From positions 1,356,082 through 1,420,081 of the forward strand of contig NZ_JDTH01000002.1 in NCBI RefSeq assembly GCF_000710615.1: 64,000 bases of DNA, given 5' to 3'. The notes below the pieces were generated by a model. It searched no databases. It had not been told where the DNA came from and was given only the letters and a program-made list of their open reading frames with translations. The position numbers and the translations under genes are program-made. The stretch comes from Haladaptatus cibarius D43. GTDB lineage: Archaea > Halobacteriota > Halobacteria > Halobacteriales > Haladaptataceae. This document shows, piece by piece, positions 1,908 through 63,335 of the stretch (positions are counted from its first letter, which is position 1; every line of letters starts with the position of its first letter).

Positions 1908-3737
1908 CTATTTCTCGGCAGGTCGTGACTCCTCTGCAACCTCGTACAGCGGATTCGGAACCGTGCCGTGCTCGGAGGCGTGTGGCCGCCCATCCGCATC
2001 CTCATAGCCGTAGTCCAGCAGGCGGTTTCGGTTCAGACAGAGTTTGGTGAACTCGGGGCGGAGCAGGTCGAACAGTTCGAATCTGTCTTCGAGTTCGGGG
2101 AACTCGGACTGGTAATCGAGAATCGCGTTTCGAACCTGCGACCAGAATTTCCCTTCCGAGTAGTCCGCATGGGTCGCCAGCGAATCCGATACGTACCGGA
2201 AGACGCAGACGAACAGTCCGGAGAAGATGAACTGACAGAGGCCTTCCGGCGGTTCGGAGCGAAGCACTGCGGAAAGGTCGTCCGGTAGGGATTCGAGTTC
2301 CGGAAGCGGTTGGTCGCTGACGTTCACGTCGTCCACGAAATCCTTCACCGCGAGGCGGTGCGGTCGGCCATCTTTCAACACGAGGATGGTGTTCTGGCCG
2401 TGCGGGGAGAACACCGTTCCGTAGCGATAGAGGTAGTGGAGAAGCGGCGGCAGGACGGTCGAGAACAGTTCGTCCAGCCATTCTTCCATCGTCAGCCCCG
2501 ACTCTTCCACGAGCGATTCGAGGAGCGGTTTCCCGTCTTCTTCGTGCATTAGCGCCGAGAGGGTGATTGCCTGTTCGTCGTCTTCGAGGAAGGTGTAGAT
2601 GCTCTCGCGCCAGACGCAGCCGAGCAATTCGTCGTACTGGTAGGCAGAACCGTCCAGTTGCGAGAAATCCGGATGGTCGTAGTTTAGTCCCGCGATTTCG
2701 CCGGGGAGAATCAGGTCACATTCGTCGCGCAAGAATGTATCGTCCTCGTAAATTCCCTTGATGTACTCCGTAACCATCGGCGCGGCCTCGGTTCGCTCAC
2801 CCGGCAGACCGCGGTAGACGAGCGTGTTGAGAATTCGGAGCGGGAGTTTGACGTGGTGGCGCTCCTCCTCGTCCACGTTGACGAAGGTTCGAATCGACTG
2901 CTGTGGCAGGTACTCGTCCGGGCCGTCGCCGAGGGGAACGATGTTCCCCGTGGCGATTTCGTCCGCGAACAGTTGGACGATGCTGTTCTCCCACTGCCAC
3001 TCGTGAATCGGAAGATAGTAGTAGTTCTTGGGGTCGTAACCCTTCGATTCGAGTTTGGTGTCGAATTTCTCCCGAAATTCGCCGAGTTCGCCCTCCACCA
3101 GCGATTCGTGGTCGAGTCCGGACACCGCCTCGAAGGTCGATCTGTCGCGTGACACCGCGACCCACGAGAGCGTCACTGGCTGTTTCTGTTCGGGTGCGTA
3201 ATCGAGGTAGTCGTCGTAGCCGAATCCGAGCCGACCCTTGTTGTAGGTAATCCACGGATGGCCCCTCATCTCACCTTCCAGTTCGGCGTAATCGAGGTCT
3301 GTCGGGTCGATTCCCTCGTCATCCTTGGCTTCGATGTGCGCGTCCGCGAGCATCGTGTTTCGATACTCCCGAATCAGGTGCCCCGTCGTCATGTCGGAGA
3401 CGCCGATGGTGTCCTGTGCGTCAAGCAGGAACTGAACCGGGTCGGTCGCCGGTTCCCAGTCGCCAGTCCCCCGTCGTTCGAGCGACTGGGGTTCGACGTG
3501 CATCCAGTCGAACTTTCGCTCTTTTGCTTCGAATCGGTATTCGACACCCTCGGTCAGTCCAAGATGGTAGGCCCCATCTGCGGTTTCCTCGGGGTCAATG
3601 AGTTCCTCGTAGCTGAACTCCGCCAGCATCTTCGCCAGCAGATTTCTGCCGACAGTCTGCCAGACCTCCGTCGAGAGGGCGTCTTGTAGTTGTTCGTGGT
3701 CGATTCGTCCATCCGTTTCCGTCGTGAGTTCTTGCAT
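1908..3737 (-). CDS. rhbF: NIS siderophore synthetase, IucA/IucC family (RhbF-like)
   Basis: A 609-residue ATP-dependent, NRPS-independent siderophore (NIS) synthetase. It joins citrate, or a citrate monoamide, to an N-hydroxy-N-acetyl diamine. Family motifs are present: GHPWITYNKGRLGF (about 159-172), LPIHEWQWEN (about 242-251) in the nucleotide/citrate site, and SPHGQNTILVL (about 444-454) in the C-terminal lobe. It is the last gene of a six-gene leftward operon and starts 2 bases after the monooxygenase stop. The gene order equals rhizobacterial rhbABCDEF, so it most likely adds the second hydroxamate arm (type C activity). Expression should follow the iron-box promoter near 10.6 kb. The enzyme order, RhbC first and RhbF second, is inferred from homology. 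Confidence 0.9.
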   Translation of the reverse strand: MQELTTETDGRIDHEQLQDALSTEVWQTVGRNLLAKMLAEFSYEELIDPEETADGAYHLGLTEGVEYRFEAKERKFDWMHVEPQSLERRGTGDWEPATDPVQFLLDAQDTIGVSDMTTGHLIREYRNTMLADAHIEAKDDEGIDPTDLDYAELEGEMRGHPWITYNKGRLGFGYDDYLDYAPEQKQPVTLSWVAVSRDRSTFEAVSGLDHESLVEGELGEFREKFDTKLESKGYDPKNYYYLPIHEWQWENSIVQLFADEIATGNIVPLGDGPDEYLPQQSIRTFVNVDEEERHHVKLPLRILNTLVYRGLPGERTEAAPMVTEYIKGIYEDDTFLRDECDLILPGEIAGLNYDHPDFSQLDGSAYQYDELLGCVWRESIYTFLEDDEQAITLSALMHEEDGKPLLESLVEESGLTMEEWLDELFSTVLPPLLHYLYRYGTVFSPHGQNTILVLKDGRPHRLAVKDFVDDVNVSDQPLPELESLPDDLSAVLRSEPPEGLCQFIFSGLFVCVFRYVSDSLATHADYSEGKFWSQVRNAILDYQSEFPELEDRFELFDLLRPEFTKLCLNRNRLLDYGYEDADGRPHASEHGTVPNPLYEVAEESRPAEK

Positions 3738-3739
3738 CG

Positions 3740-5158
3740 TTAATCCTCCTGCAATGGTGTCCGCTCGCTCCGCAGTCGTTCGCTGTTCGGTGCTTTTGAG
3801 ACGAATTGCTCGACCGAGAAATCCTGAAAGACGGTGTCTTCATCCACGGGATACACCTCCTCTCCAGCGATCGATTCGATGATGTGTGCGTTTCGATAAC
3901 AACCGAGTCCGAGGTCGGGCGTGCCGACGCCGTGGGCGTGCATTCCGGCGTTCTGGACGAACATCCTGCTCTCCGCGTCGAATCCGACTTCGAAGTTGGA
4001 TTCAACGCGGACTCGCCCCTTCGCGTCTCGGGCGATTCGCTCCTCGACTCCGGCGAGGAACGAGGGCGTCGGGCGGTGGTACCCCGTGCCTAAAATCACG
4101 ACGTCGCTCTCGTGAGCGAATCGTTCGCCAACCTGCCACTGCTCGCAGATCAGGCGATAGCTATCGCCGACCTGCTCGATGTCCTGTACGTCCGTCATAG
4201 CGAGCATGCCGACGTTCGGGTCGTCGCCGCCGACAGACCGCTCGTAGAGCAGGTCGTAGATTTCCTCGCTGGTGTTCTCGTCGATGCCTTTGTACAACAA
4301 GCCCTGTTCCGGCAGGAGGTCGTCTTTCGTCTTCTGTTCTAACTCGTGGAAGTACTGGGTGTACTCCGGCGTGAAATGCTGGAGTCCCAGTTTCGAGTAC
4401 TCCATCGGGAAGAACCCGTCAGACCGAGTGAGCCAATCGAGACGGAACTCCGCCTCCGGTTGATGGCGAAGCAAATCGAGGAATATCTCTGCGGCGCTCT
4501 GGCCCGACCCGACGACCGTAATCGAATCGGCGTCCAAACAGCGTTCTCGCCGATTTAGATACGAGGCCGAGTGGAACACGTCTTCGTCGGAATGACCGCG
4601 AAGCGGTTCCGGAACGAACGGAACGCTCCCGACACCGACGACGATGTCCTTCGCGCGGTATTCGATTGGCTCACCCATTTCGCCCGTCTCGCCCGCGTTT
4701 CCGTTTTCGGGACTGCGTGCGATGACGCGGAATTCGTCCGCCGATTCGTCGTAGGTCACGTTGGTCACGCGCCGACTGAACCGAGTGTTGTCCAACTCCT
4801 CGGCAGTCCAACGACAGTATTCGTCGTACTCCCGGCGCGGCACCTGAAACGTCTCGTAGAAGTAAAATTCGTAGAGACGGTCGTGCTGACGCAGGTAGTT
4901 CAGATAGCTGTAGTCGCTCGTCGGGTCGGCGAGCGTCACGAGGTCGGCCATAAAGGGCACTTCGAGCGTCGCGTCCTCGATGAGCATCCCGCCGTGCCAT
5001 TCGAACTCGGGTTTCTGTTCCAAGAACACCGAATTCAAATCGGTGGGAGAAAGCAAGGCAGAGAGGCCGAGATTGAACGGGCCGAGTCCGATTCCGAGAA
5101 CGTCGTACACGTCTTCACCTTGCCCTTCGCTCGTCTCCGTCTCATTCGTCCCCGTCAT
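3740..5158 (-). CDS. rhbE: Lysine/ornithine-type N-monooxygenase for siderophore synthesis (RhbE/IucD-like)
   Basis: A flavin-dependent amine N-hydroxylase that uses NADPH and O2. The FAD Rossmann motif GIGLGPFNLGL lies at about residues 22-32 and the NADPH motif VVGSGQSAAEIF at about 215-226. The 472-residue length suits the IucD/RhbE/SidA family. Because the operon also carries diaminobutyrate aminotransferase and decarboxylase genes, the expected substrate is 1,3-diaminopropane rather than lysine. The start codon overlaps the acetyltransferase stop by one base (TGATG on the minus strand), implying coupled translation. Hydroxylation is expected to come before acetylation, giving the bidentate hydroxamate. 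Confidence 0.92.
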   Translation of the reverse strand: MTGTNETETSEGQGEDVYDVLGIGLGPFNLGLSALLSPTDLNSVFLEQKPEFEWHGGMLIEDATLEVPFMADLVTLADPTSDYSYLNYLRQHDRLYEFYFYETFQVPRREYDEYCRWTAEELDNTRFSRRVTNVTYDESADEFRVIARSPENGNAGETGEMGEPIEYRAKDIVVGVGSVPFVPEPLRGHSDEDVFHSASYLNRRERCLDADSITVVGSGQSAAEIFLDLLRHQPEAEFRLDWLTRSDGFFPMEYSKLGLQHFTPEYTQYFHELEQKTKDDLLPEQGLLYKGIDENTSEEIYDLLYERSVGGDDPNVGMLAMTDVQDIEQVGDSYRLICEQWQVGERFAHESDVVILGTGYHRPTPSFLAGVEERIARDAKGRVRVESNFEVGFDAESRMFVQNAGMHAHGVGTPDLGLGCYRNAHIIESIAGEEVYPVDEDTVFQDFSVEQFVSKAPNSERLRSERTPLQED

Positions 5159-5748
5159 CAGCCCAGCACCTCCCGCTCGAATCGCTCGCGCTCACAAATC
5201 ATCAAGAGGGCGTCCTTTTCCTCCAGTTCGATTTCGCGCTGTGGCTCGAAGCCGCATTTCTCGAAGACGTGAATAACTTTCTCGTTACGGACATCGGGTT
5301 CGGTCACCACGCGGTCGGTTTCGTCGTGGCGAAACTGGAAGGCGGTCATCGCCCGAAGCAGCGGCTCTGCGTAACCATGGCCCAAAAATTCGGGCACGCC
5401 GATGAGCAGGTGAATCCCTTGATCTGTCGGCTTCGCGTCGTAGTGGTCTGCGAGGTCGTCGTCCACCGCCCAGTAAGACTCCCAGTAGCTCATCGGGACG
5501 TGGTCGAGATGGCCGATGTAGGGCGTCATGTGGTCGTCGTCGAGCTTTTCCGCGAGTTTTTCGCGGAACTCGGGAAGCGGGTCGTTCCACTGCCAGTAGG
5601 GTAGGACGTGGGGTTCGTTCAGCCAGCGATGGAGGCGACCGAGGTCGCGCTCCATCGCCACGTTGCGGAACGAAACCGTCTTCTCGATGGTCGAATCGTG
5701 CGTCTGGAAGTCGTACTCCGACGCCACGATTCCGGCGAGGCCGGTCAT
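5158..5748 (-). CDS. rhbD: Hydroxamate acetyltransferase, GNAT fold (RhbD/IucB-like)
   Basis: A 196-residue GNAT acyltransferase of the siderophore type, expected to acetylate the N-hydroxylated diamine from acetyl-CoA. Family hallmarks are HRWLNEPHVLPYWQW (about 40-54), typical of IucB/RhbD N-termini, and GIHLLIGVPEFLGHGYAEPL, which carries the acetyl-CoA pyrophosphate-loop region. It overlaps the upstream synthetase gene by 4 bases and the downstream monooxygenase by 1, so it is firmly inside the operon. The acyl group is taken as acetyl by homology; a longer acyl chain cannot be excluded. Confidence 0.88.
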   Translation of the reverse strand: MTGLAGIVASEYDFQTHDSTIEKTVSFRNVAMERDLGRLHRWLNEPHVLPYWQWNDPLPEFREKLAEKLDDDHMTPYIGHLDHVPMSYWESYWAVDDDLADHYDAKPTDQGIHLLIGVPEFLGHGYAEPLLRAMTAFQFRHDETDRVVTEPDVRNEKVIHVFEKCGFEPQREIELEEKDALLMICERERFEREVLG

Positions 5749-7559
5749 TCGTTTTCATCCTCCGTGGCCGTCACGATGGGGTTCGGAACCTCGGTATAGA
5801 CCGACTGGTTTTCGAGCGTTCCGGTCAGTTCGTCCATGCCGCGGAACCGCGTCAGTAGGTTCGCCTTGCAGGCCAACCGTTCCTGTGTGAGCAGACTCGA
5901 CAGCAAGGACGATTCCTCGTGGTCGTGTTCGGTCAGGGATTCGAGTTCCTCGCGCAGAATCGACAGCAGGCGAGACTCGTCCACGAGTTCCGCCGTGCCA
6001 AAGGCGTTGATCACGCCGAGCACGTTGTTCAGGACGACGTAGTAGCGGATTCGTTCGTCCGCCAACTCGTCCGAGACCAGCGTGTCGGCGCGTTCCGCGA
6101 CGCCCGGAAGCAGGGCATCGACTTCGTCGTGGCCCGACTCGGTGAAGTAGTAGCCCTGATTGTCTCGGTAGTGGAATCGGCCTGGATAGCCGTCACGGAG
6201 CGTCAGAACGCTGTTTTGCTGATGGGCCTCCAAACCGATTCCGTAGTTCAGGTAGAGCCACAGCACCGGCCTGAGCGAGATGGCGAGATACTGGCGGAAC
6301 CAGTCTTCGCTCACGTCGGCCGTGGGTCTTCCTTCCCTGTCAGCGATTTCCGAGACGACGTTTGCGAGGCGCGAATCGCCACCAAACATGTGGTCTTGAC
6401 AGAGGCCGACGATTGGCGAGGCACCCTTCGCGTCCTCGCCGCGGAATGGATTTTCGCGCAGGACGACCTCGAATCCGGATTCGGGTGCCGACTTCGTTCC
6501 GACATCGACGGTGAGATACGCCGGGTCGCGCACCACGCCGAAATTCGGGAACCGGGTTTCGAGTTCCGACCCGAGTTCGGTGTCCATCAGTTCGGTGATT
6601 GCCACGCCGCGTTCCAGTTCCGGGCGTTTGTTCGTCCGCTCCGAGTTGGTGATGTTCACCGCGAGCGATCCTTTCACCATGAACGCCGACTCCGGATTGT
6701 AGAGGGTTCGAACCGACGACGTGGGGTAGTACGGCTCGCCGTGCGCGCCGAGGTACTGAAGCCTGCCATCCGCCAGCAGGGATTCGACGTGCGGTTGGGA
6801 GAGCAGGTGGTTCGCCTGCCACGGATGTACCGGGATCAGCACGTCGTCGCTTTCCACGTGTTTCTCGCGGAAGGATTCCGAAACCTCGGAATCGTCCCGC
6901 AGTTCGCCTTTGACCCATTCGTCGGCACGCCGGTCGCGCGCGGAATCCTGTGCCACGATTTGGGGGTCGGCCCGGAAGTAGTGGAGCGAAAATTCTCCCC
7001 GCAGTTCCGGGGCATAGGTGGGGGCGTTTCGTTCCGCGATACCTTCTCGGCTTTTCGGCGTCGGGTGGAGCAGGTGGCCGAAAATCAACGACTGCTCGGC
7101 GTCTTTAAATTCGAAGTCGGTGCCGTACAGTCGGTCGCGGTCGTGCGCGCGAGCGCGGACGAACCGCTCGATTCGGGCCTTGCTCGACAGCACGCGGAAG
7201 AGCAGTTCGTCGCCGACGTGGTCGCCTCCTCGTGCGAGCGAGAGTTCCTTGACGACGAGACTCGACAGGGTCGCGTAGTCGAGGTCACGCCAGCCCTCAC
7301 TCGCTTTGAACCGAATCGGGAGGTCGAACAGATGTCTCCCGGTTGGAGAACGATACGACAGCGGCGCTCGAACGCCGATTCCCAGAATCGGGAGTTCGAA
7401 CTGAATCGTCTCATCGGCCGCTGCGGAGTCGTCGGGAACCACGTCGTACGCGCCGGTTTCCCGGAGATAGCAGTTGAGGAATGCGTGAATCGTCGCAGAT
7501 TCGGCGGCATCCGCCGATTCGATGCTCGAGTCCAGTTGGGCAGTCTCCGGTGCCGTCAT
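5745..7559 (-). CDS. rhbC: NIS siderophore synthetase, IucA/IucC family (RhbC-like)
   Basis: The second NIS synthetase of the cluster, 604 residues. Recognisable motifs are GHLLHPTPKSREGI (N-terminal lobe), IPVHPWQANHLL (ATP/citrate region) and AHQQNSVLTLRDGYPGR (C-terminal lobe). By position it matches RhbC, which makes the first citrate amide. It overlaps both neighbours by 4 bases (ATGA-type junctions). Two divergent IucA/IucC paralogs in one operon indicate a two-armed citrate siderophore such as schizokinen. A long antisense frame on the plus strand is a codon-bias artefact. Confidence 0.9.
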   Translation of the reverse strand: MTAPETAQLDSSIESADAAESATIHAFLNCYLRETGAYDVVPDDSAAADETIQFELPILGIGVRAPLSYRSPTGRHLFDLPIRFKASEGWRDLDYATLSSLVVKELSLARGGDHVGDELLFRVLSSKARIERFVRARAHDRDRLYGTDFEFKDAEQSLIFGHLLHPTPKSREGIAERNAPTYAPELRGEFSLHYFRADPQIVAQDSARDRRADEWVKGELRDDSEVSESFREKHVESDDVLIPVHPWQANHLLSQPHVESLLADGRLQYLGAHGEPYYPTSSVRTLYNPESAFMVKGSLAVNITNSERTNKRPELERGVAITELMDTELGSELETRFPNFGVVRDPAYLTVDVGTKSAPESGFEVVLRENPFRGEDAKGASPIVGLCQDHMFGGDSRLANVVSEIADREGRPTADVSEDWFRQYLAISLRPVLWLYLNYGIGLEAHQQNSVLTLRDGYPGRFHYRDNQGYYFTESGHDEVDALLPGVAERADTLVSDELADERIRYYVVLNNVLGVINAFGTAELVDESRLLSILREELESLTEHDHEESSLLSSLLTQERLACKANLLTRFRGMDELTGTLENQSVYTEVPNPIVTATEDENE

Positions 7560-9133
7560 CGTTCCACCTCCGGGAAAACAGCGCGAAGGGAACTGCCGCG
7601 TCGTTCGATTGCGTCGAGGATGTCCGCGACATCGGCCAGCGTGGTTTGCGGATTAAGCAGGGTGAACTTCAGCGCGGTAACGCCGTCCACTTCGGTTCGG
7701 GCGACCACGGCATCACCCTCTCGCAGCAGTGATTCGCGTATCGCCTCGTTCAGCCAACTCAATCGCTCGTCGTCCATGTCGCTATCAGGACGATAGCGGA
7801 ACACGACCGCGTTGATGGTCGGTTCGGCGACCAGTTCGAACGACGAATCGGAAACGAGCAGTTCCGCAACCTCCTCCGCGAGGGCAATCGTCTCATCGAC
7901 CAGCGTCCCGAATCCGTCCCGACCGAGCGCGCGGAAGGAAACGAACGGCTTCAGCGCGTCGAATCGTCGCGTCGTCTGCACTGATTTGGCGACGAGGTTC
8001 GGCACGGAGGCGTCCTCCGGATTAAGGTACGAGGCGTTTCGCGCGATGTGTTCGTACTGCGACCCGTCGCGTAGGAGGAACGCGCCACAGCTAATCGGCT
8101 GGTAGAACAACTTGTGGAAATCCACCGACAGGGAATCCGCTCGGTCGATACCCGAAAGCAGTTCCCGATGGCGGTCTGACAGCGCCAGCGCGCCGCCGTA
8201 GGCCGCATCGACGTGGAACCACAGGTCGTGTTCCTCCGCGCGCTCCGCGAGTTCGGAGAGTGGGTCGATGCTTCCGAAGTCGGTGGTTCCCGCCGTGCCG
8301 ACGAGCGCGAACGGGAGCAGTTCGCGCTCGTCCAGTTCGGCCAAGGTGCGGTCGAGCGCGTCGGGACACATCTCCCGGTCGTCGTTCGATTCGACGGTGA
8401 CGACCGCGTTTTCCCCAAGTCCGAGGTGGGCGGCCGCCTGTTCCGCGGTGAAGTGCGCTTCCTCGGAGCAGAGGATTCGCATAGCTTTCGCGCGGTGGGG
8501 CAGTCCCGACCGCTGTACGTTGGTGCCGAATCGTTCTTTGGCGAACCGTTCGCGGGCCAGTAGCAGGCCCATGAAGTTCGACTGCGTCCCGCCGGAGGTG
8601 AACACGCCGTCGCCGGAATCGCCGTAGCCGAACAGGTCACAGAGTGCTTCTACCATCCGCGTTTCGAGGTGTGTCGCCGCCGGACTCTGGTCCCACGAGT
8701 CCATGGACTGGTTCGTCGCGGACAGCATCGCCTCCGCGGCGAGTCCGGAAATCATCGGCGGGCAGTGCAGGTGCGCGAGACACTGCGGGTTCGAAACGCC
8801 GACCGAATTTCGGAGAACGGATTCGGCCGATTCGAGGGCCGACTCCAACCCCTCGCCAGAGTCCGGAATCATCTCCACCTCGGCGATCTCCTCGCGGAGC
8901 GATTCCGGACTGGCACCAGAGTACGGGTCTGCGTTTTCCACGAACGCATCGAGAACCGCGTTCGTCGTCTGCTCCATCGTCGTTCGATACGCCTCTGCGC
9001 CCTTCTCGCCGCCCAAAAACAGGGATTCTTCGGGCGTCGCGGCGTCCGCAGAATCCTCTCCGTCCGCGAAATCGGCTGATTCCGCGGACGGTTTCGCCGA
9101 AGACGCGAGACGCTCTTCGGGTGATTTGTTCAT
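7556..9133 (-). CDS. rhbB: L-2,4-diaminobutyrate decarboxylase, PLP-dependent (RhbB-like)
   Basis: A group II PLP decarboxylase that turns L-2,4-diaminobutyrate into 1,3-diaminopropane, the diamine core of schizokinen. The PLP lysine lies in SVDFHKLFYQPISCGAFLL, and HVDAAYGGALAL carries the Asp that pairs with the pyridine nitrogen. Upstream, TSGGTQSNFMGLL is the phosphate-binding loop. I start at the ATG at 9133 (525 residues), which overlaps the preceding aminotransferase stop as ATGA; the frame's upstream extension is Arg-rich and reads through the neighbour. The N-terminal 50 residues are Ala/Glu-rich, a common haloarchaeal extension. Confidence 0.92.
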   Translation of the reverse strand: MNKSPEERLASSAKPSAESADFADGEDSADAATPEESLFLGGEKGAEAYRTTMEQTTNAVLDAFVENADPYSGASPESLREEIAEVEMIPDSGEGLESALESAESVLRNSVGVSNPQCLAHLHCPPMISGLAAEAMLSATNQSMDSWDQSPAATHLETRMVEALCDLFGYGDSGDGVFTSGGTQSNFMGLLLARERFAKERFGTNVQRSGLPHRAKAMRILCSEEAHFTAEQAAAHLGLGENAVVTVESNDDREMCPDALDRTLAELDERELLPFALVGTAGTTDFGSIDPLSELAERAEEHDLWFHVDAAYGGALALSDRHRELLSGIDRADSLSVDFHKLFYQPISCGAFLLRDGSQYEHIARNASYLNPEDASVPNLVAKSVQTTRRFDALKPFVSFRALGRDGFGTLVDETIALAEEVAELLVSDSSFELVAEPTINAVVFRYRPDSDMDDERLSWLNEAIRESLLREGDAVVARTEVDGVTALKFTLLNPQTTLADVADILDAIERRGSSLRAVFPEVER

Positions 9134-10491
9134 TTGGCGGTCACCTCCCGGCGAACCGCGGTGCCGACCGCGTCGTAAAATCGCTCGGCGATGGCGTCCA
9201 CGTCGTCCTTCGTGACGATGAGCGGCGGCAGGAATCGAACCGTACTGCTGTCGCGGCCGCCCAGTTCCACGATGAGGCCGCGGTCGAAACATTCGTCACG
9301 GATTTCGGAGGCGAGGTCGGAATGTGTCGGATAATGTCCGAGGTCGTCCGTCTCTGCGGCGATATCGACGATTTCTGCGCCGAGCATCAAACCCCGCCCG
9401 CGAACGTCGCCGACGCAGTCGAACGTTGCTTGAGTGTCTTCGAGGTGACTCCTGAGTCTGTCGCCCATTTTCTCGGCGTGGGAGTCGAGGTCGTTTTCGA
9501 GGACGTGCTCGATGGTCGCCTGTCCCGCCGCCATCGCCAGTTGGTCGCCGCGGAAGGTTCCAGCGTGGGCACCCGGTTCCCACACGTCTAACTCCTCTTT
9601 GTAGACGACGACCGAAAGCGGGAGGCCGCCGCCGACCGCTTTCGAGAGCGTTATCACGTCGGGTACGATGTCGGCGTGCTCGAAGGCGTACAGTTCGCCC
9701 GTGCGGCCGAGTCCGGTCTGGATTTCGTCCACGACGAGCGGGATGTCGCGTTCTTGGGTCATCCGCCGGATTTCCCGCGTCCAGTCGTCGGGGGCGGGAA
9801 TCGCGCCGCCCTCGCCCTGCACGAGTTCGAGCACCATTCCTGCCGGGGAGACGACGCCGCTTTCCGGATCCGAAAGGACGTGTTCAACGTATCGACTCGC
9901 GGTTTCGTGGCCGGATTCGCCGCCGATACCGAACGGACAGCGATACTCCGAGGGATACGGGAGATGATGCACGTCGGGCATCGTTCCCGGAACGGATTCT
10001 TTCGGGTCGGTGTTGCCCATCAGTCCGAGTGCGCCGTGGGTCATCCCGTGATAGCCGCCCTGAAACGCGAGTACGGAGCGATTTCCGGTGGCTGTTTTGA
10101 CGAGTTTCAGCGCCGCTTCGATGGCGTCGGTTCCGGCGGGGCTACAGAACTGTACCCGCGCTGACTCCGAAAACTCGTCGGGAAGGCTGTCGAACAGCGT
10201 GTCCACGAACCGCTCTTTCGTCGGCGTCGTGATGTCGAGCGTGTGCAGTGGTCGCTCTGCGTCCAGCACGTCCTCGATGGTCTGCACCACGACGGGGTGG
10301 TTGTGGCCGAGCGCGAGCGTTCCTGCCCCCGCCAGACAGTCGTAGTAGACGTTTCCATCCGCGTCCTCGACTTCGACGCCGTTCGCTCGCTCGATGGCAA
10401 TCGGAAGGTGACGGGGGTACGTTCGCGCGTTCGATTCCCGGCGCGCTTGCTGGGACAGCAAGCGCGCATTTTCGCTTTCGCTCCCGGTCAT
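9130..10491 (-). CDS. rhbA: Diaminobutyrate--2-oxoglutarate aminotransferase (RhbA-like)
   Basis: A class III PLP aminotransferase of 453 residues. It makes L-2,4-diaminobutyrate from aspartate semialdehyde and glutamate. Motifs are CSPAGTDAIEAALKL, the FQGGYHGMTHGALG glycine loop, VVDEIQTGLGRTG with the PLP Asp, and ITLSKAVGGGLPLS with the Schiff-base Lys. It is the first gene of the siderophore operon, about 80-130 bases downstream of two iron boxes. The ATG at 10491 is preferred over the frame's first codon at 10590, because the extra residues would begin inside the operator region. An EctB-like role in ectoine synthesis is less likely, since no ectA or ectC is nearby. Confidence 0.92.
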   Translation of the reverse strand: MTGSESENARLLSQQARRESNARTYPRHLPIAIERANGVEVEDADGNVYYDCLAGAGTLALGHNHPVVVQTIEDVLDAERPLHTLDITTPTKERFVDTLFDSLPDEFSESARVQFCSPAGTDAIEAALKLVKTATGNRSVLAFQGGYHGMTHGALGLMGNTDPKESVPGTMPDVHHLPYPSEYRCPFGIGGESGHETASRYVEHVLSDPESGVVSPAGMVLELVQGEGGAIPAPDDWTREIRRMTQERDIPLVVDEIQTGLGRTGELYAFEHADIVPDVITLSKAVGGGLPLSVVVYKEELDVWEPGAHAGTFRGDQLAMAAGQATIEHVLENDLDSHAEKMGDRLRSHLEDTQATFDCVGDVRGRGLMLGAEIVDIAAETDDLGHYPTHSDLASEIRDECFDRGLIVELGGRDSSTVRFLPPLIVTKDDVDAIAERFYDAVGTAVRREVTAK

Positions 10492-18998: not shown

Positions 18999-20246
18999 TC
19001 AGTCTTCCGACGCGTGTGCGTGACCTTTACCCTCTATCTCGGTAATCGCTGGAAGCTGACGGAGGCTTGGACGCACGAGGAAAAATCCGACGACAGCTAA
19101 GAGTCCAAACGCCGCGACGACCATAGCGACGACGCTCCCCCAGACGCTCGCAATGGCACCACCAGCGAGTGCGCCAACGGGTCCTGCGGCCGCCGAGACA
19201 CCACTCGTCACGGACATCGCTCGTCCGATGAGTTCATCGGGTACAATGGTTTGGACTGTCGCGTGGACGAGAACGTTGAAAATTCCAACGGGAACCCACG
19301 CGAGCATGAACAGTCCGATCGTTCCATACTTCCACGGAGAGAAAATCGACCCAAGCCAGAAGACGAATCCAAAAAAGAAAACGAAGATACAGACGCGACC
19401 GAACTCTCGGTTTTCGAGTTTCGGTGCGACTAGCGACCCGAGAAGTGTTCCCGCGGCGAGTGCGCCGAGCATGGCACCGTACATCTCGGGGCCACCCTGC
19501 TGGTCGGAAAACGATGGCAGAACCGCTGTCGATATCTGAAGCGCGAAGTTTGCAATCGCCGCAGTGGTGATGATGCTGAACACGACCGAACCACGGACGT
19601 ATGCAAAGCCCTCGGAGAGGTCGCTCCAGTACTGAGAGATACTAGATTCGTCCGTGTCTTCGTTCTCGGCCTCCGTTGAGGGATAGTTCACAGATGCAAA
19701 GAGAAGAGCAGCAAAAACGAACGTAATCGAGTCGAGAACGTAGAGTGACACCGCCCCTACGACGGCAATGAGGATACCGCCGATTGCGTTAAACGCCGCG
19801 TCGACACCGTTGTAGGCGAACGAAAACGCCGAATTGGCCCGAACAATATTTCCGTCTTCGACGATACGCGGCAGTGCCGCGTTTTGTGCGGGATAGACAA
19901 ACTGATTGAGCATCGAAAGTATCGGAATCAGCACTAGGACTAATACAACGGTCAACTGTCCGGTGGCCGCCGCAAGTGGTATAATAAGCACGCAAACAGC
20001 CTGAATCATTTGAATCACGACGAGCGAACGCCGCAACGGCCAGCGGTCGACGAACGGGCCAGTGAGAAACTGTAACGCCCCCGGTAGCAGGGTAAGAAAT
20101 CCTGCGACGCCAGTGAGAAACGGGGAACCGCCCAACTCGTGAACGAGCCACAGTGCGGCAATGAGATAGAGACTGTCCCCCACGTTAGTTACTAATCGTC
20201 CTAAAAAGAGCCGAACAAAATTTTGATTTTTTCGTAAACTCGCCAT
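18999..20246 (-). CDS. MFS exporter, EntS-like (MFS_3)
   Basis: A 415-residue integral membrane protein with about 12 hydrophobic segments, starting FVRLFLGRLVTNVGDSLYLI as in the MFS_3 group that includes the enterobactin exporter EntS. The loop-2/3 motif FVDRWPLRRSLV is present. A charged cytoplasmic loop (about residues 195-215, rich in Glu/Asp) splits the two six-helix halves. The ATG at 20246 is chosen, since the upstream part of the frame is AT-rich and shows no conserved start. It could export a product of the local cluster or the siderophore made about 9 kb away; the sequence does not decide. Confidence 0.85.
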   Translation of the reverse strand: MASLRKNQNFVRLFLGRLVTNVGDSLYLIAALWLVHELGGSPFLTGVAGFLTLLPGALQFLTGPFVDRWPLRRSLVVIQMIQAVCVLIIPLAAATGQLTVVLVLVLIPILSMLNQFVYPAQNAALPRIVEDGNIVRANSAFSFAYNGVDAAFNAIGGILIAVVGAVSLYVLDSITFVFAALLFASVNYPSTEAENEDTDESSISQYWSDLSEGFAYVRGSVVFSIITTAAIANFALQISTAVLPSFSDQQGGPEMYGAMLGALAAGTLLGSLVAPKLENREFGRVCIFVFFFGFVFWLGSIFSPWKYGTIGLFMLAWVPVGIFNVLVHATVQTIVPDELIGRAMSVTSGVSAAAGPVGALAGGAIASVWGSVVAMVVAAFGLLAVVGFFLVRPSLRQLPAITEIEGKGHAHASED

Positions 20247-20282: not shown

Positions 20283-20468
20283 ATGGTTCCGATACATATA
20301 ATAAAATATAAAGATAAATATGGTTTAAATCATAGAAACCATCGCCGTGAGCCGGTGAAACAGTTATACAAGATGGTTGCCGAGTCGTTGTCATTTCATA
20401 AAGAAAATTTCCTATCCTGTCTTAATTTAACTCCCAAAAGTAATAAGGCCTCTTCAAATGTTGTGTAA
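20283..20468 (+). CDS. Possible small basic protein upstream of the protease
   Basis: An open frame of 61 codons from an ATG at 20283, or 72 from a TTG at 20250. It ends with TAA three bases before the protease start, an operon-like spacing. The predicted protein is basic (Lys/His/Arg-rich) with the single Cys in ENFLSCLNLTPKS, unlike acidic haloarchaeal proteins. The DNA is AT-rich, where open frames of this length are uncommon by chance, but codon use gives no support. It also overlaps the promoter of the divergent MFS gene. I recognise no family, and it may be chance. Confidence 0.25.
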   Translation: MVPIHIIKYKDKYGLNHRNHRREPVKQLYKMVAESLSFHKENFLSCLNLTPKSNKASSNVV

Positions 20469-20471
20469 TTT

Positions 20472-22430
20472 ATGCGAATATATACCACTGTCAGCGGGGA
20501 GTTCGCGGATTTAGCAGAAGAAATCGCGGTAGAGCGCGGTGGACAAGTCATCAATGACCTCACATCACTCGCCGACGAACCAGTCGTTTGGGTAGACCAT
20601 CCATCGAACATCGACAGTTCCGGTCTTCTCCGACTGCAGAAGCGATCGCTGGATAAAGGGCCAGAAAATGGGCAGTTCAGCGTTATTACGGGATACACTC
20701 CAAAGATGGCACGACGGCTGTACGAGCGGGAAACGAATCACGAGTCGGGCGAACACGCAGTACTCGTCCAACACCCCCATACGTCGCTCACGGCCGAGCG
20801 TTTCGACACCGACGAGGACGCGACAGTACTCCTTGGAAACGATGCAACCGTCAAAAATCTCCGGGAGATACAACAGGATGGACTAACGTCCTTGGCCGTC
20901 CAAACTCACGGGTGGCCGATTCATTTGAATCTCGCTGACGGATTCGTCTGTGGGTATCCGACGACACAAAACGTTGCCGACTACGACGAACCACAACCGT
21001 ACTGCGTGCAGGACGGAGAGATAGACTGTCCATTCGATGAGGAGATCATCGCCGCGGAAGAGCTGACCCCGGAACACGTTTTTCTCGTCTCGTGTGCGTC
21101 GATGATTGACAATGGGTGGTCTGGACTCCCTGTTCACGTCGGAATGGGGCTACTAAACGGTGCAACCTCCCTCATCGGTTCGTACAGGCCCGGTGCGTCA
21201 CTCCCCCACGAGCCGATTCTCCACTACGTTCTGCTTCGAGCGGGCTACACGCTCTCCGAACGGTGCTATCTCCTGAATCAGCACTCACACGTAAACGATG
21301 TTATGGCGTATCCTTACGTCCCCTTCGGACATCCGGATGCGAGCGTTGCGGGCAGTGGGCCGAGCGAAACGGTCGAGGTGGATGCCGACGACGAGGGAGT
21401 TGTCCTCTCTGCCGATCCACAGGGCGCATTTCTCGTGGATACGTCAATACCACTCGACGTTTTCGACGAACCGATTGACCGTGCGTACGTTCGAAATCTC
21501 GACGACGACCCGCAGAAAGTACGGTATTACATGACTTTTCGGGAGGGCGACGAGCTACGAGTCGTCCTCTACTCCGGAGGGCGAATGCACTCCCCGTTCG
21601 AAGTTCGCGTTAGTCCGACACCAATAGACCAGCGCAAGCGGGAACGGTATCTCGATTCGTATCACAACGCCGAAGACAACCGGAACTTGGGAATACTCAG
21701 TTCGAAAGCCGAGCGCCAGACCGACAATCTTCGCCAACTCGTTCGCAACTTGCCGGAGAAAGTGTCGTCAGAAAAGTACGACCCCAACGTTTACCACGAG
21801 GTTCGAGAGCAGATTGACGAGATAGATGGGACTGCAAAGGCAATCGGCCACGAACTCACCTCGGTCGCAAACAAAGGGGAATACTTCCAGAACTACTACC
21901 GAACGCGAGCGATAGATGACGACGTGTTCGCGGCCGACGTGGATTGTTTTTCGTGCGGACGCGAGACGCTCATCAAACAGATTTCGGACGGCGACGAGAC
22001 GTACCGCGCGATGGGAGTCTGTTCCCATTGTGGACACGTTTACGACGTACCGACGGCGGACGGCGAACGGTGTCCACCACACCCAACGGTTTCGGGAGAC
22101 TTCACATGCACGGACGAGCAAGTGCGCGAACTCGAAGTTTCGTTCGAAAACCCAACCGAATACGAACTGGATGCCATGATAACTCTGTCACTTCGTCACG
22201 AAGGAAACACGACGGCGGACGACGAACACCTATTCGACCCACCCGCAGTCCAGGCGACCATTCCAATTGGTGAGTCGATTACGGCAAGTTTTTCGCTCGA
22301 CACCGCGAGGATAGCAGATAACCAACATTACCTGCTCGCTCGCGTGGTTGCGAACAATGCAGTGTACTCTGGAAATGCTGTTTTGCTAGTTGGGGAGAAA
22401 ACAGGGTTCCTACAGCCGTGGCACCGGTAA
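20472..22430 (+). CDS. Caspase-fold (C25/CHAT-like) protease with zinc ribbon
   Basis: A 652-residue protein I assign to clan CD peptidases from its core. LAVQTHGWPIHLNL holds the candidate catalytic His146, and EHVFLVSCASM holds Cys208. GLLNGATSLIGSYRPG follows, like the Gly-Ala strand after the catalytic Cys in gingipain and CHAT domains. Residues 300-380 look like a beta-rich region. Residues 380-470 are charged and helical, possibly coiled coil. A zinc ribbon follows (Cys492, Cys495, Cys517, Cys520), then a C-terminal beta-sandwich-like domain (about 545-650). No signal peptide or membrane helix is seen, so it is probably cytoplasmic. Target and trigger are unknown. Confidence 0.65.
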   Translation: MRIYTTVSGEFADLAEEIAVERGGQVINDLTSLADEPVVWVDHPSNIDSSGLLRLQKRSLDKGPENGQFSVITGYTPKMARRLYERETNHESGEHAVLVQHPHTSLTAERFDTDEDATVLLGNDATVKNLREIQQDGLTSLAVQTHGWPIHLNLADGFVCGYPTTQNVADYDEPQPYCVQDGEIDCPFDEEIIAAEELTPEHVFLVSCASMIDNGWSGLPVHVGMGLLNGATSLIGSYRPGASLPHEPILHYVLLRAGYTLSERCYLLNQHSHVNDVMAYPYVPFGHPDASVAGSGPSETVEVDADDEGVVLSADPQGAFLVDTSIPLDVFDEPIDRAYVRNLDDDPQKVRYYMTFREGDELRVVLYSGGRMHSPFEVRVSPTPIDQRKRERYLDSYHNAEDNRNLGILSSKAERQTDNLRQLVRNLPEKVSSEKYDPNVYHEVREQIDEIDGTAKAIGHELTSVANKGEYFQNYYRTRAIDDDVFAADVDCFSCGRETLIKQISDGDETYRAMGVCSHCGHVYDVPTADGERCPPHPTVSGDFTCTDEQVRELEVSFENPTEYELDAMITLSLRHEGNTTADDEHLFDPPAVQATIPIGESITASFSLDTARIADNQHYLLARVVANNAVYSGNAVLLVGEKTGFLQPWHR

Positions 22431-60543: not shown

Positions 60544-62631
60544 CTAGTTAATATCAGATATTTGTAATTCGTCGCTCCAGTAAAGCTGATTTTCAACTTC
60601 AACCGGTCTAACTTCGTACGAAATCCAAGATTTAAGTTCTTCTATAGATAGATTTACTGTTGTTAGGGGTGCCGAGGCGATATACCGTTCTTGCGACCAA
60701 TCGGGATGAAAATTAACATGAGTTCCAAACCCGTGTATATCAGTCGGGTATGTATTGACCACAACCTCGAACCGGTCGTTTTTAACTCGCTTGATTTTGA
60801 GATGATGTGGTAGTCCGCTCTCACACTGGACTAACGACAACCCACCATCTCCGAGCACAGTATACTGATAGCCGTACACTGATTGCTTTCGTGCAATCGA
60901 CAGCGCGGCGCGAAGAGGAAAACCACAGTTTAGGAGTCGAGCCAGTATTTTGCCCAGTTTCGTCGCCGACGGATTGCCGATGGGGGAAAGCGTGGCGACG
61001 CCGCCGCGACTTCCCTTTTTGATGAGTTCGTACCCCTGCTGGTAGGACTCACAGGCGTTCAGGAGGAATGCGGTGGCGTTGACCTCCGTGAGGGTATGCG
61101 CGTCGAGCGACCCGTCGGCGCAGAGAAACCCGCGGTCGTCGATGTGGCCGATGTAGTGGACGAAATCGGACTGCCGAGCGAGCAGTTCCCGGAGTTCGTC
61201 CTGCGTGAGGTCGTAGTGGGCGGTCACGTCGAAATCGAGGAACTCCCGAACGCCGTACAGTTCCTTCACCACGTCCTCGTCCAGCATTTTGTCGTCGTTA
61301 CAGACGACGTGAATGTCGATGGTGTCCGAGGTCGGAACGCGGTCAACTCGTCGCTCAAGCGCGGACAAATCGAGTTTGTTGACCTTGAGAGGGAATCCCG
61401 GCCCGGCCCACGCCTGTTCGATGACGTTCGGCATCGAATCAACCTGAAACACGTCCCGGTCGTCCACCGCGTCCCAGCCCTTCGTCCCGCGAGCCAGCAC
61501 GCCGGATGGCGGCGCGCGGAAGAACTCGCTCTGAGCGTCCGACATGGGTTTGACCGAGTTGGGATTCGGGCTGTCGGGAAGCCGAACGAGCGCGAGGTTG
61601 TCCGCGAGGTACGGGAGATATTCCGCGTTTTCGACCGTCGGTGTGAGGTCAACGCCGAGTCGCCAGTTTGGGATGTACGGTTCGAGCGTTTCGAACGGAA
61701 CCGATAGATACGCGGCGAGACGCGCCGTCAACGGCGCGTCGTACAGTGCAGAAAAGTCGAGGTCAACGAGCGGTTCGACTTGCTCGCGTTCGTGCAAGTC
61801 AACTTGATAGTATCCCTCGGTTCGAGTAAGACAGTCGAGGAAAAACGTCTGGCGAAGGACGCGGTTGACCGCGTTTTCGTAGCTGTCGCCAGCGGTAAGT
61901 TCGTGCTCGAACTCGTCCGCGACCAATCGCGGACGAGTTCCTGTCTCCGGAACGACCTCCCCGCCGAGATAATACGCGAGCGAGGCCAGCGGGAAGACGT
62001 GTTCCCTGTCTGGGGGGACGACAAGTGAAACACCCGTATCGGGTCGAACCAGCCCATCCGGCGCGTCGAATTGTTCCGCGCGCTTGATAAGTGGCGGATG
62101 TCCCCGCAGGGTCGGAAACGAGCGCTCCGGACTCGTCGTTTTCAGCGCCGACCCGGAGAGAGAAAGCGCGCGCATCACGTCCTCTACGTCGTCGGTAACG
62201 GTTATCGTCCCCGCCGGTCGGTCGTGGTAGGAGCGTGCACCCACACGCACGGACGTTTCGGCTCCGAAGTCGAGGACGACCGCACCGTCGCGCTGTTTGA
62301 GACGGAATCCGCTTTCGACGCCGAGGTACAGCTTCATCGGGGCCGTACTCAGTTCGATGAGATAGGTTCCGGGTTCGACGCTCCGGTTGTTGCCGTCGGA
62401 GGTTTCGGCCACCATCTCCCCGTCCTGCGTTCGAATGGTGACGGGAAGCAGTTTCGGTACGCAGAGCGTCACGGTTTTGACGGCAACCGCGGCATCGACC
62501 GGAAAGTAGAACCGTTTGGTCGAAACTGCCGTCGGCTGAACGGAACCGGAGGTGTAGAGTGCGAAGCGAACGTTCTCGATAGGGTCGTAAACGTCGAGTC
62601 CGTCGCGCTCGGGATGCCGCCGAAACTCCAT
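60544..62631 (-). CDS. CHAT-domain protease (caspase-like)
   Basis: A 695-residue protein with a C-terminal CHAT domain at about 430-595. The catalytic dyad is His496 (SDFVHYIGHIDDRGFL) and Cys527 (TAFLLNACESYQQG), followed by KGSRGGVATLSPIGNPSA, the Gly-Ala strand of the fold. Residues 1-130 look beta-rich and could bind ligand; 130-430 have no family I recognise. A beta-rich tail follows the protease domain. No signal peptide or membrane helix is seen. It starts 20 bases after the DUF7504-like gene, probably in one transcript. CHAT proteases elsewhere act in immune or signalling roles; the target here is unknown. Confidence 0.8.
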   Translation of the reverse strand: MEFRRHPERDGLDVYDPIENVRFALYTSGSVQPTAVSTKRFYFPVDAAVAVKTVTLCVPKLLPVTIRTQDGEMVAETSDGNNRSVEPGTYLIELSTAPMKLYLGVESGFRLKQRDGAVVLDFGAETSVRVGARSYHDRPAGTITVTDDVEDVMRALSLSGSALKTTSPERSFPTLRGHPPLIKRAEQFDAPDGLVRPDTGVSLVVPPDREHVFPLASLAYYLGGEVVPETGTRPRLVADEFEHELTAGDSYENAVNRVLRQTFFLDCLTRTEGYYQVDLHEREQVEPLVDLDFSALYDAPLTARLAAYLSVPFETLEPYIPNWRLGVDLTPTVENAEYLPYLADNLALVRLPDSPNPNSVKPMSDAQSEFFRAPPSGVLARGTKGWDAVDDRDVFQVDSMPNVIEQAWAGPGFPLKVNKLDLSALERRVDRVPTSDTIDIHVVCNDDKMLDEDVVKELYGVREFLDFDVTAHYDLTQDELRELLARQSDFVHYIGHIDDRGFLCADGSLDAHTLTEVNATAFLLNACESYQQGYELIKKGSRGGVATLSPIGNPSATKLGKILARLLNCGFPLRAALSIARKQSVYGYQYTVLGDGGLSLVQCESGLPHHLKIKRVKNDRFEVVVNTYPTDIHGFGTHVNFHPDWSQERYIASAPLTTVNLSIEELKSWISYEVRPVEVENQLYWSDELQISDIN

Positions 62632-62651: not shown

Positions 62652-63335
62652 CTATGATAGTTCTACCCAGTGGGTCGTCTCACCGAGGTCGGGAACGTGC
62701 CATCGCTGCTCTGCCAAACCGGGCCGCTTGCGCAGTTCGATACGCGCGTCGAACAGCGGAGACAGTTCTTCTACGAGCGGGTCGTCGTCTGCCACTCGAA
62801 GATGATAGTGCGCCATGCCGTGGACACCGCGGACGATTGCGGTGAGTCCGCGAAGGAACTGGGAAAGGGAGACGATGTCGTCCCCACCGGACAGCACTTC
62901 GACGGAATCGATTCCGAGGCGAAGTTCCGCGGGCGAAAAGCCATCGTTTTGGTCGTCGTACTGACTGATTACGGAAATTAGCTCGGAACGAAGCGTTTCC
63001 CGTGAAACGTTCTGTACGGAGTCGGTTTTTTCGTCGCTCTTCGTGGCGCGATATTCAGTTCGTCGGTCGATGACGCGGGTGTCCGGGGAGTTCGGTTCGA
63101 CCGGAAGGTGCGAGTCTGCACCGAGTGCGGTGGGGTTCGTAAGCGCGAGCACGCGCGTTCGTCGCCCCTGTCCGAAGAGCGTCCGACTGAATGCGGCGCT
63201 CGTCTCTTTCGGCACGTCGCCGGTAACGAGGAGATTGCTGCCACTCGTTTTCAGCCCCGCAAGCCACTCAGTGAACTGCACGTCCTGCGTCGAACCCTCG
63301 CCCGACCCGCTTCGAAATTCGAGACGAGAACTCAT
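62652..63335 (-). CDS. DUF7504-like degenerate KaiC/RecA-fold protein
   Basis: A 227-residue protein resembling haloarchaeal DUF7504 (from memory), a family related to KaiC-like ATPases. The expected P-loop region reads NLLVTGDVPKETSAAF, without the GKT/S of a Walker A, so ATP hydrolysis is unlikely. ELRLGIDSVEVLSGGDDIVS resembles the later RecA-fold strand that carries Walker B. I start at the ATG at 63335 rather than 63359. It is the upstream gene of the pair with the CHAT protease and may be its regulator or adaptor. Confidence 0.72.
   Translation of the reverse strand: MSSRLEFRSGSGEGSTQDVQFTEWLAGLKTSGSNLLVTGDVPKETSAAFSRTLFGQGRRTRVLALTNPTALGADSHLPVEPNSPDTRVIDRRTEYRATKSDEKTDSVQNVSRETLRSELISVISQYDDQNDGFSPAELRLGIDSVEVLSGGDDIVSLSQFLRGLTAIVRGVHGMAHYHLRVADDDPLVEELSPLFDARIELRKRPGLAEQRWHVPDLGETTHWVELS

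Follow-up and report, generated by a model that had tools for sequence, protein, structure and literature searches.

The locus studied here raises the question of whether a 652-amino-acid protein of the haloarchaeon Haladaptatus cibarius D43 is a protease of the caspase type and, if so, with which residues it would act and in what process. Its gene is found at positions 20472..22430 (+ strand) of the window, the whole 64,000-nucleotide stretch of DNA that was analyzed. A sequence-only reading had described the product as a caspase-fold protease with a His146/Cys208 dyad, a four-cysteine zinc ribbon and a C-terminal beta domain. The open reading frame (652 amino acids, ATG start), His146, Cys208 and the four zinc ribbon cysteines (492, 495, 517 and 520) had all been located correctly. 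The gene is real, with nine full-length relatives, and it is rare. The dN/dS ratio between the two Natrinema copies, the one pair compared, is 0.15, and the protein is therefore under constraint in Natrinema. It is probably cytosolic.

The opinion that the protein could not be placed in a known family also held, since it matched no Pfam or NCBIfam model at the cut-off. Over the family, the best Pfam E-value was 0.0027, to a zinc ribbon (nine members scanned), and the best NCBIfam E-value was 0.0049, in one of the ten members scanned. The isolated cores of all ten members produced a chance-level Pfam match alone, and no Pfam match to Peptidase_C25, CHAT or Peptidase_C14 was detected at E <= 10 in the ten cores or in the full proteins of nine members. 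PF00656 (Peptidase C14 / p20) had no matches in the H. cibarius genome and none among the family members scanned. Sequence searches of solved structures with the family returned nothing convincing, and no paper on such a family was found in the literature, chiefly open-access, on haloarchaeal caspase-like, CHAT or C25 proteins.

Ten full-length homologs, including the window protein, were identified in haloarchaea, and the gene is rare, patchy in distribution and sometimes duplicated. One relative is a paralog in the same genome, at a distance of 32 kb, and the two copies of Halorussus litoreus are separated by 1.4 kb and a single methyltransferase-like gene. Full-length relatives were found by protein search in 4 of 28 genomes of the taxonomic family, and profile searches found full-length members in 5 of 391 genomes of the class and in 7 of 392 of the order, the last adding L041, from another taxonomic family. 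Matches in the plasmid search were limited to Haladaptatus caseinilyticus (G001), congeneric with the window genome in the taxonomy used, and Halorussus salilacus (G022). A first scan of genome contigs detected no homolog of the protein, and a second one returned three matches, already known, in Natrinema gari, N. altunense and H. litoreus; no homolog was confirmed in viral contigs (pattern scans) or in phage records. The H. salilacus plasmid also contains pieces of further copies, L010 (150 residues) and L027 (with stops), which were kept out of the alignments. On the same plasmid, at L033:9803-10291, a piece of the caspase-like gene is next to a frame resembling an annotated IS6 transposase, with a DDE domain match below the cut-off. 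Weak partial matches (L003, L005, L013, L021-L023, L038 and L039; E about 1e-6 to 1e-3) were excluded from the family, and L035, L036 and L037 duplicate L012, L011 and L008, respectively. The conservation alignments consisted of ten rows; the first model, the profile searches and the Pfam member scan were based on nine rows, without L041.

The proposed clan CD (caspase) fold was assessed by structure prediction. The full-length AF2 model of the window protein, built from nine sequences, left residues 87-243 unresolved, and the fold-search matches listed for it were mostly Ig/Fn3-like. An AF2 model of the first 292 residues of the ortholog L007, built from a 10-sequence alignment, reached a pTM of 0.68 and a mean pLDDT of 63. 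The top VIA-align match of this core was gingipain R (RgpB, 4ief_B; Z 14.3 over 244 of 292 residues, rmsd 4.0), and gingipains R and K together gave Z values of 14.3-13.5 over 241-244 residues, the best gingipain K scoring 13.7. TPR-CHAT/Csx29 and separase chains ranked after the gingipains (Z 10.1-8.4). Rows 1-31 consisted of chains of these three groups, with 7x8a_D so assigned by chain range only, and, apart from 7x8a_D, the first differently titled row was row 32, the anti-sigma factor DdvA (Z 8.6), which also occupied row 34 (Z 8.5). Foldseek with the same core found nothing at E <= 0.001; CHAT and separase were on top at E 0.017-0.03, and this ranking is thus not significant alone. These results support the clan CD fold on the core of the ortholog rather than on the window protein itself. 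Read from that model, the fold is likely for the 652-amino-acid family, and a predicted gingipain/CHAT/separase-like core was assigned to residues 1-290 (20472..21341, + strand). The pLDDT of the active-site region was below 50 in both models (in L007, residues 138-187 and 200-222), so the models provide no distances or geometry for the His151-Cys208 pair or the metal site discussed below.

The catalytic dyad proposed before did not withstand the comparison of homologs. While Cys208 (21093..21095, + strand), the presumed nucleophile, is invariant in all ten proteins, His146 (20907..20909, + strand) is found in two, the window protein and L008; the residues at this position are D, H, G, N, A, H, N, N, N and K. 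Gly147, after the usual histidine position, is kept in nine of the ten proteins. According to PMC4357240, a glycine adjoining the catalytic histidine is structurally conserved across all clan CD families. Therefore, the site, which was placed by motif in a loop modelled without confidence, seems to be correctly located and the histidine lost. An ordinary His146/Cys208 dyad is unlikely, and because His146 is not conserved, the protease identity of the protein is putative only.

Conservation in the ten homologs points to other residues. Invariant positions number 43 of 652 overall versus 7 of the 11 cysteines (160, 178, 186, 208 and three in the zinc ribbon). Among the 25 histidines, His151 (20922..20924, + strand) and His251 (21222..21224, + strand) alone are invariant, and the invariant acidic residues amount to one Glu and no Asp. 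The best conserved portion comprises residues 121-295, with a mean identity of 0.44 versus 0.22-0.33 elsewhere. As judged by eye, residues 147-186 form an apparent insert between the usual histidine position and the strand with the cysteine. The insert includes the stretch with Cys160, Cys178 and Cys186 (20949..21029, + strand), each present in 10 of 10 proteins. The spacing and invariance of these three cysteines and His151 suggest that they probably bind metal.

The core is followed by a predicted beta sandwich (residues 296-381; 21357..21614, + strand) with seven strands and a block pLDDT of 79-88 from residue 301, and by a helical region (residues 387-476; 21630..21899, + strand), which is the least conserved part of the protein (mean pairwise identity, 0.22). 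The zinc ribbon, C492-C495...C517-C520 (21945..22031, + strand), has three cysteines conserved in all ten proteins and C520 in nine, L041 having a histidine in its place. The zinc-ribbon Pfam matches of the window protein were below the cut-off. The C-terminal beta domain was modelled with good confidence and resembles Ig-like domains, several of which matched residues 537-645 (22080..22406, + strand) with Z about 11 in VIA-align. The CARDB entries 3idu and 2kl6 (Pyrococcus PF1109) occupied ranks 21 and 30 in the Foldseek search with the whole model, in which the model range is not given. Hence, the four-cysteine ribbon and the beta domain of the earlier description were both confirmed, the latter as a predicted Ig/CARDB-like domain.

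The divergent neighbor of the gene encodes an MFS_3/EntS-like exporter (18999..20246, - strand, with a possible start at 20297; PF05977, E 4e-29; PF07690, E 9e-25). An MFS gene above the Pfam cut-off was found at 5 kb or less from six of eight independent loci (67 bp to 4.5 kb), where genome-wide counts would predict 0.70 (P about 1e-5), in a post hoc test for which both the exporter class and the 5-kb limit were chosen with the loci already in view. L006 and L008, which are one locus, contributed once to this count, as did L011 and L012, from two Natrinema, and the per-genome MFS match counts include genes split into two matches. The six MFS proteins do not belong to a single subfamily. In H. 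litoreus (G017) the sole genome match to the window MFS is in the caspase-like locus, and so is the best match in H. salilacus, while in H. caseinilyticus the closest homolog of the window MFS is outside the caspase-like locus. The two loci with no MFS within 5 kb have other exporters, an ABC-2 exporter at 1.1 kb in Natrinema and an annotated MATE exporter at 2.4 kb on the H. salilacus plasmid.

The biosynthetic neighbors vary from locus to locus. In Natrinema, the caspase-like gene is the last of a five-gene same-strand run, together with genes for an AsnRS-like protein, an ABC ATPase with a DrrA-like tail, an ABC-2 permease and an S66 carboxypeptidase. This run, at L031:9284-15343 and L032:9119-15177, looks like a cryptic metabolite operon. 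NeuB, NeuC, DegT and amidase genes are partners at two loci, and adenylate-kinase-like, SelD-related (NF038049, below the cut-off) and cytidylyltransferase-like genes form a cassette shared by two loci in two genera (L028:6724-9450 and L015:8268-12205). Exporters in common next to varied enzymes suggest an accessory step tied to exported small molecules, and a role in export-linked metabolism is plausible. In the window, the EntS-like MFS could instead serve a siderophore-type cluster located 8.5 kb away on the same strand (1908-10491, - strand), which encodes two IucA/IucC synthetases, a Lys/Orn monooxygenase, a PLP decarboxylase and a class III aminotransferase.

A comparison of 1171 small frames, with the L042 genes unmasked, identified no precursor-like frame shared near the eight loci. 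The sole pair clear of larger genes on both sides, from L015 and L028, is short, has 32 % identity over 47 residues and was attributed to chance. Beside the H. litoreus exporter there is a 51-amino-acid acidic frame with a GGGC motif (L029:18538-18693, - strand), and no convincing copy of it was found in the other loci compared.

A small basic protein had been proposed to precede the 652-amino-acid gene. The 61-codon frame does exist (20283..20468, + strand), ends 3 bases before the gene and would encode a basic product (11 K+R, 4 D+E), but its status as a real protein was not upheld. Its GC content by codon position is 0.39/0.27/0.34 versus 0.65/0.40/0.61 for the 652-amino-acid gene, and a search for counterparts in the 500 bases upstream of the nine relatives gave one match alone, at chance level (E 4.2). 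The frame is located in an AT-rich gap between divergent genes, which is also occupied by a 69-codon antisense frame. In a first-order Markov simulation of this single gap, the uncorrected probability of a + strand frame of at least 60 codons was 0.006; the length is therefore somewhat unusual for one gap, of which the 64 kb hold many. With its non-coding base pattern, its basic product, the lack of real upstream counterparts and the antisense frame in the same gap, the frame is very probably spurious, and it was rejected as a precursor or partner.

The window had also been said to contain a second caspase-like protease, possibly a theme of the genome. A 695-amino-acid CHAT-like protein with the motifs FVHYIGH...FLLNAC is indeed encoded at 60544-62631 (- strand), and the genome contains eight matches to it. 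The part of this claim that failed is the connection, as this is a family separate from that of the 652-amino-acid protein as far as BLASTP and hhalign tell. BLASTP detected nothing between the two, and hhalign aligned 18 columns with a probability of 1 %, setting Cys208 on Cys527 of the CHAT-like family in an alignment that is not significant. The 695-amino-acid protein has no Pfam family. It shares with the 652-amino-acid family its haloarchaeal origin, clan CD-like motifs (recognized by eye) and a further conserved cysteine, Cys504, near the presumed catalytic His496. In contrast, it keeps His496, Cys504 and Cys527 in all eight relatives compared (one locus from each of eight genomes, out of many matches), and it is widespread, being present in 69 of the 79 class genomes sampled. 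A gene carrying DUF7504 (62652-63335, - strand) adjoins it.

We tentatively favor, as the leading explanation, a Cys208-dependent enzyme of the gingipain/CHAT type with a metal-binding insert, which would act on an exported metabolite or peptide and would found a new haloarchaeal family. Cys208 would be the nucleophile and its partner would be one of the invariant histidines, His151 or His251, rather than His146. The insert with His151, Cys160, Cys178 and Cys186 may coordinate a metal next to the active site, probably zinc, and would either position His151 or act in place of the lost histidine. The zinc ribbon and the Ig/CARDB-like tail could be docking parts for a substrate or partner. The most likely reaction of such an enzyme would be the cleavage or transfer of an amide bond, with a small molecule or a peptide as substrate, and the neighboring MFS, ABC or MATE pump would export the processed molecule, the step being one of maturation or self-protection in lineage-specific metabolite clusters.

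The alternative that survives best, possible if doubtful, is that the protein is a pseudoprotease, a clan CD scaffold in which metal binding by His151 and the four core cysteines has a structural purpose alone and which acts as a regulator or chaperone for the neighboring exporter or pathway. Loss of the canonical histidine in eight of ten homologs, the near absence of invariant acidic residues, two sets of cysteines of metal type and accessory domains of docking type are all consistent with it. Pseudo-orthocaspases likewise have a caspase fold with a departed catalytic dyad, but according to PMC6426788 their His and Cys are substituted by Tyr and Ser, and they are reported as absent from Archaea, whereas the family described here is archaeal, falls outside the p20 profile and keeps an invariant cysteine at what the motif indicates is the nucleophile position of the fold. 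A different possibility, which we consider unlikely, is that a metal center (His151/Cys160/Cys178/Cys186) next to Cys208 stands in for the catalytic histidine, so that the protein would be a cysteine enzyme assisted by metal, tailoring or disarming the metabolites that the pumps export.

Improbable by comparison is a defense or cell-death effector protease, like the CHAT proteases known from CRISPR type III-E. In the fold comparison CHAT (Csx29) chains come second as a structural group, the distribution is patchy with a plasmid location in two genomes, and helicase, nuclease and type I restriction genes are found 4-16 kb away at one locus, but no PADLOC model scored better than E 0.009 in any of the ten members (JAB, in one of them). 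The family scans of the neighboring genes covered a part of these, and defense genes may be present among the others. The ordinary clan CD peptidase with the dyad of the sequence-only reading has very little chance of being correct, as the His146-Gly147 and Cys208 order expected for it, with the histidine shared by L008, is set against D, G, N, A, N, N, N and K in the other eight homologs. Equally remote is an over-reading of the fold from a shallow ten-sequence model of some other alpha/beta fold, in favor of which are the mean pLDDT, the low confidence of the active-site half and the lack of C25, CHAT or C14 matches in any member, and against which are the Z of 14.3 and the 31 concordant top rows, 7x8a_D by chain range.

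The Cys208-dependent enzyme that we favor would differ from the known systems in several respects. With gingipains R and K (C25) it shares the predicted core fold and a predicted beta sandwich after the core (residues 296-381), a possible counterpart of the Ig-like domain directly after the C25 catalytic domain; unlike them, the family has no Pfam C25 match in ten of ten cores, has lost the canonical histidine in 8 of 10 members, and has three extra invariant cysteines, a zinc ribbon and an Ig/CARDB-like tail. CHAT proteases (Csx29) and separases have in common with it the clan CD fold and a cysteine close to where a predicted beta strand ends, but it is set apart from them by the missing canonical histidine in eight of ten members and by the absence of a sequence match in solved structures or Pfam; no CRISPR or TPR part was noticed. 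A highly conserved His/Cys dyad is what clan CD enzymes depend on (PMC4357240), and PMC6426788 reports the dyad in all 93 archaeal p20 proteins surveyed. The 652-amino-acid family would therefore be an archaeal exception, outside the p20 profile.

Caspase-like activity was measured in Haloferax volcanii even though Archaea were said to lack clear caspase homologs (PMC3615174), and proteases still unidentified are invoked in a recent study on archaeal lanthipeptides (PMC12144867). A family retaining fold and cysteine while moving or replacing the histidine, with three further invariant cysteines beside it, would show the rebuilding of an active site, and its recurrent exporter neighbors are a handle on unknown haloarchaeal metabolites.
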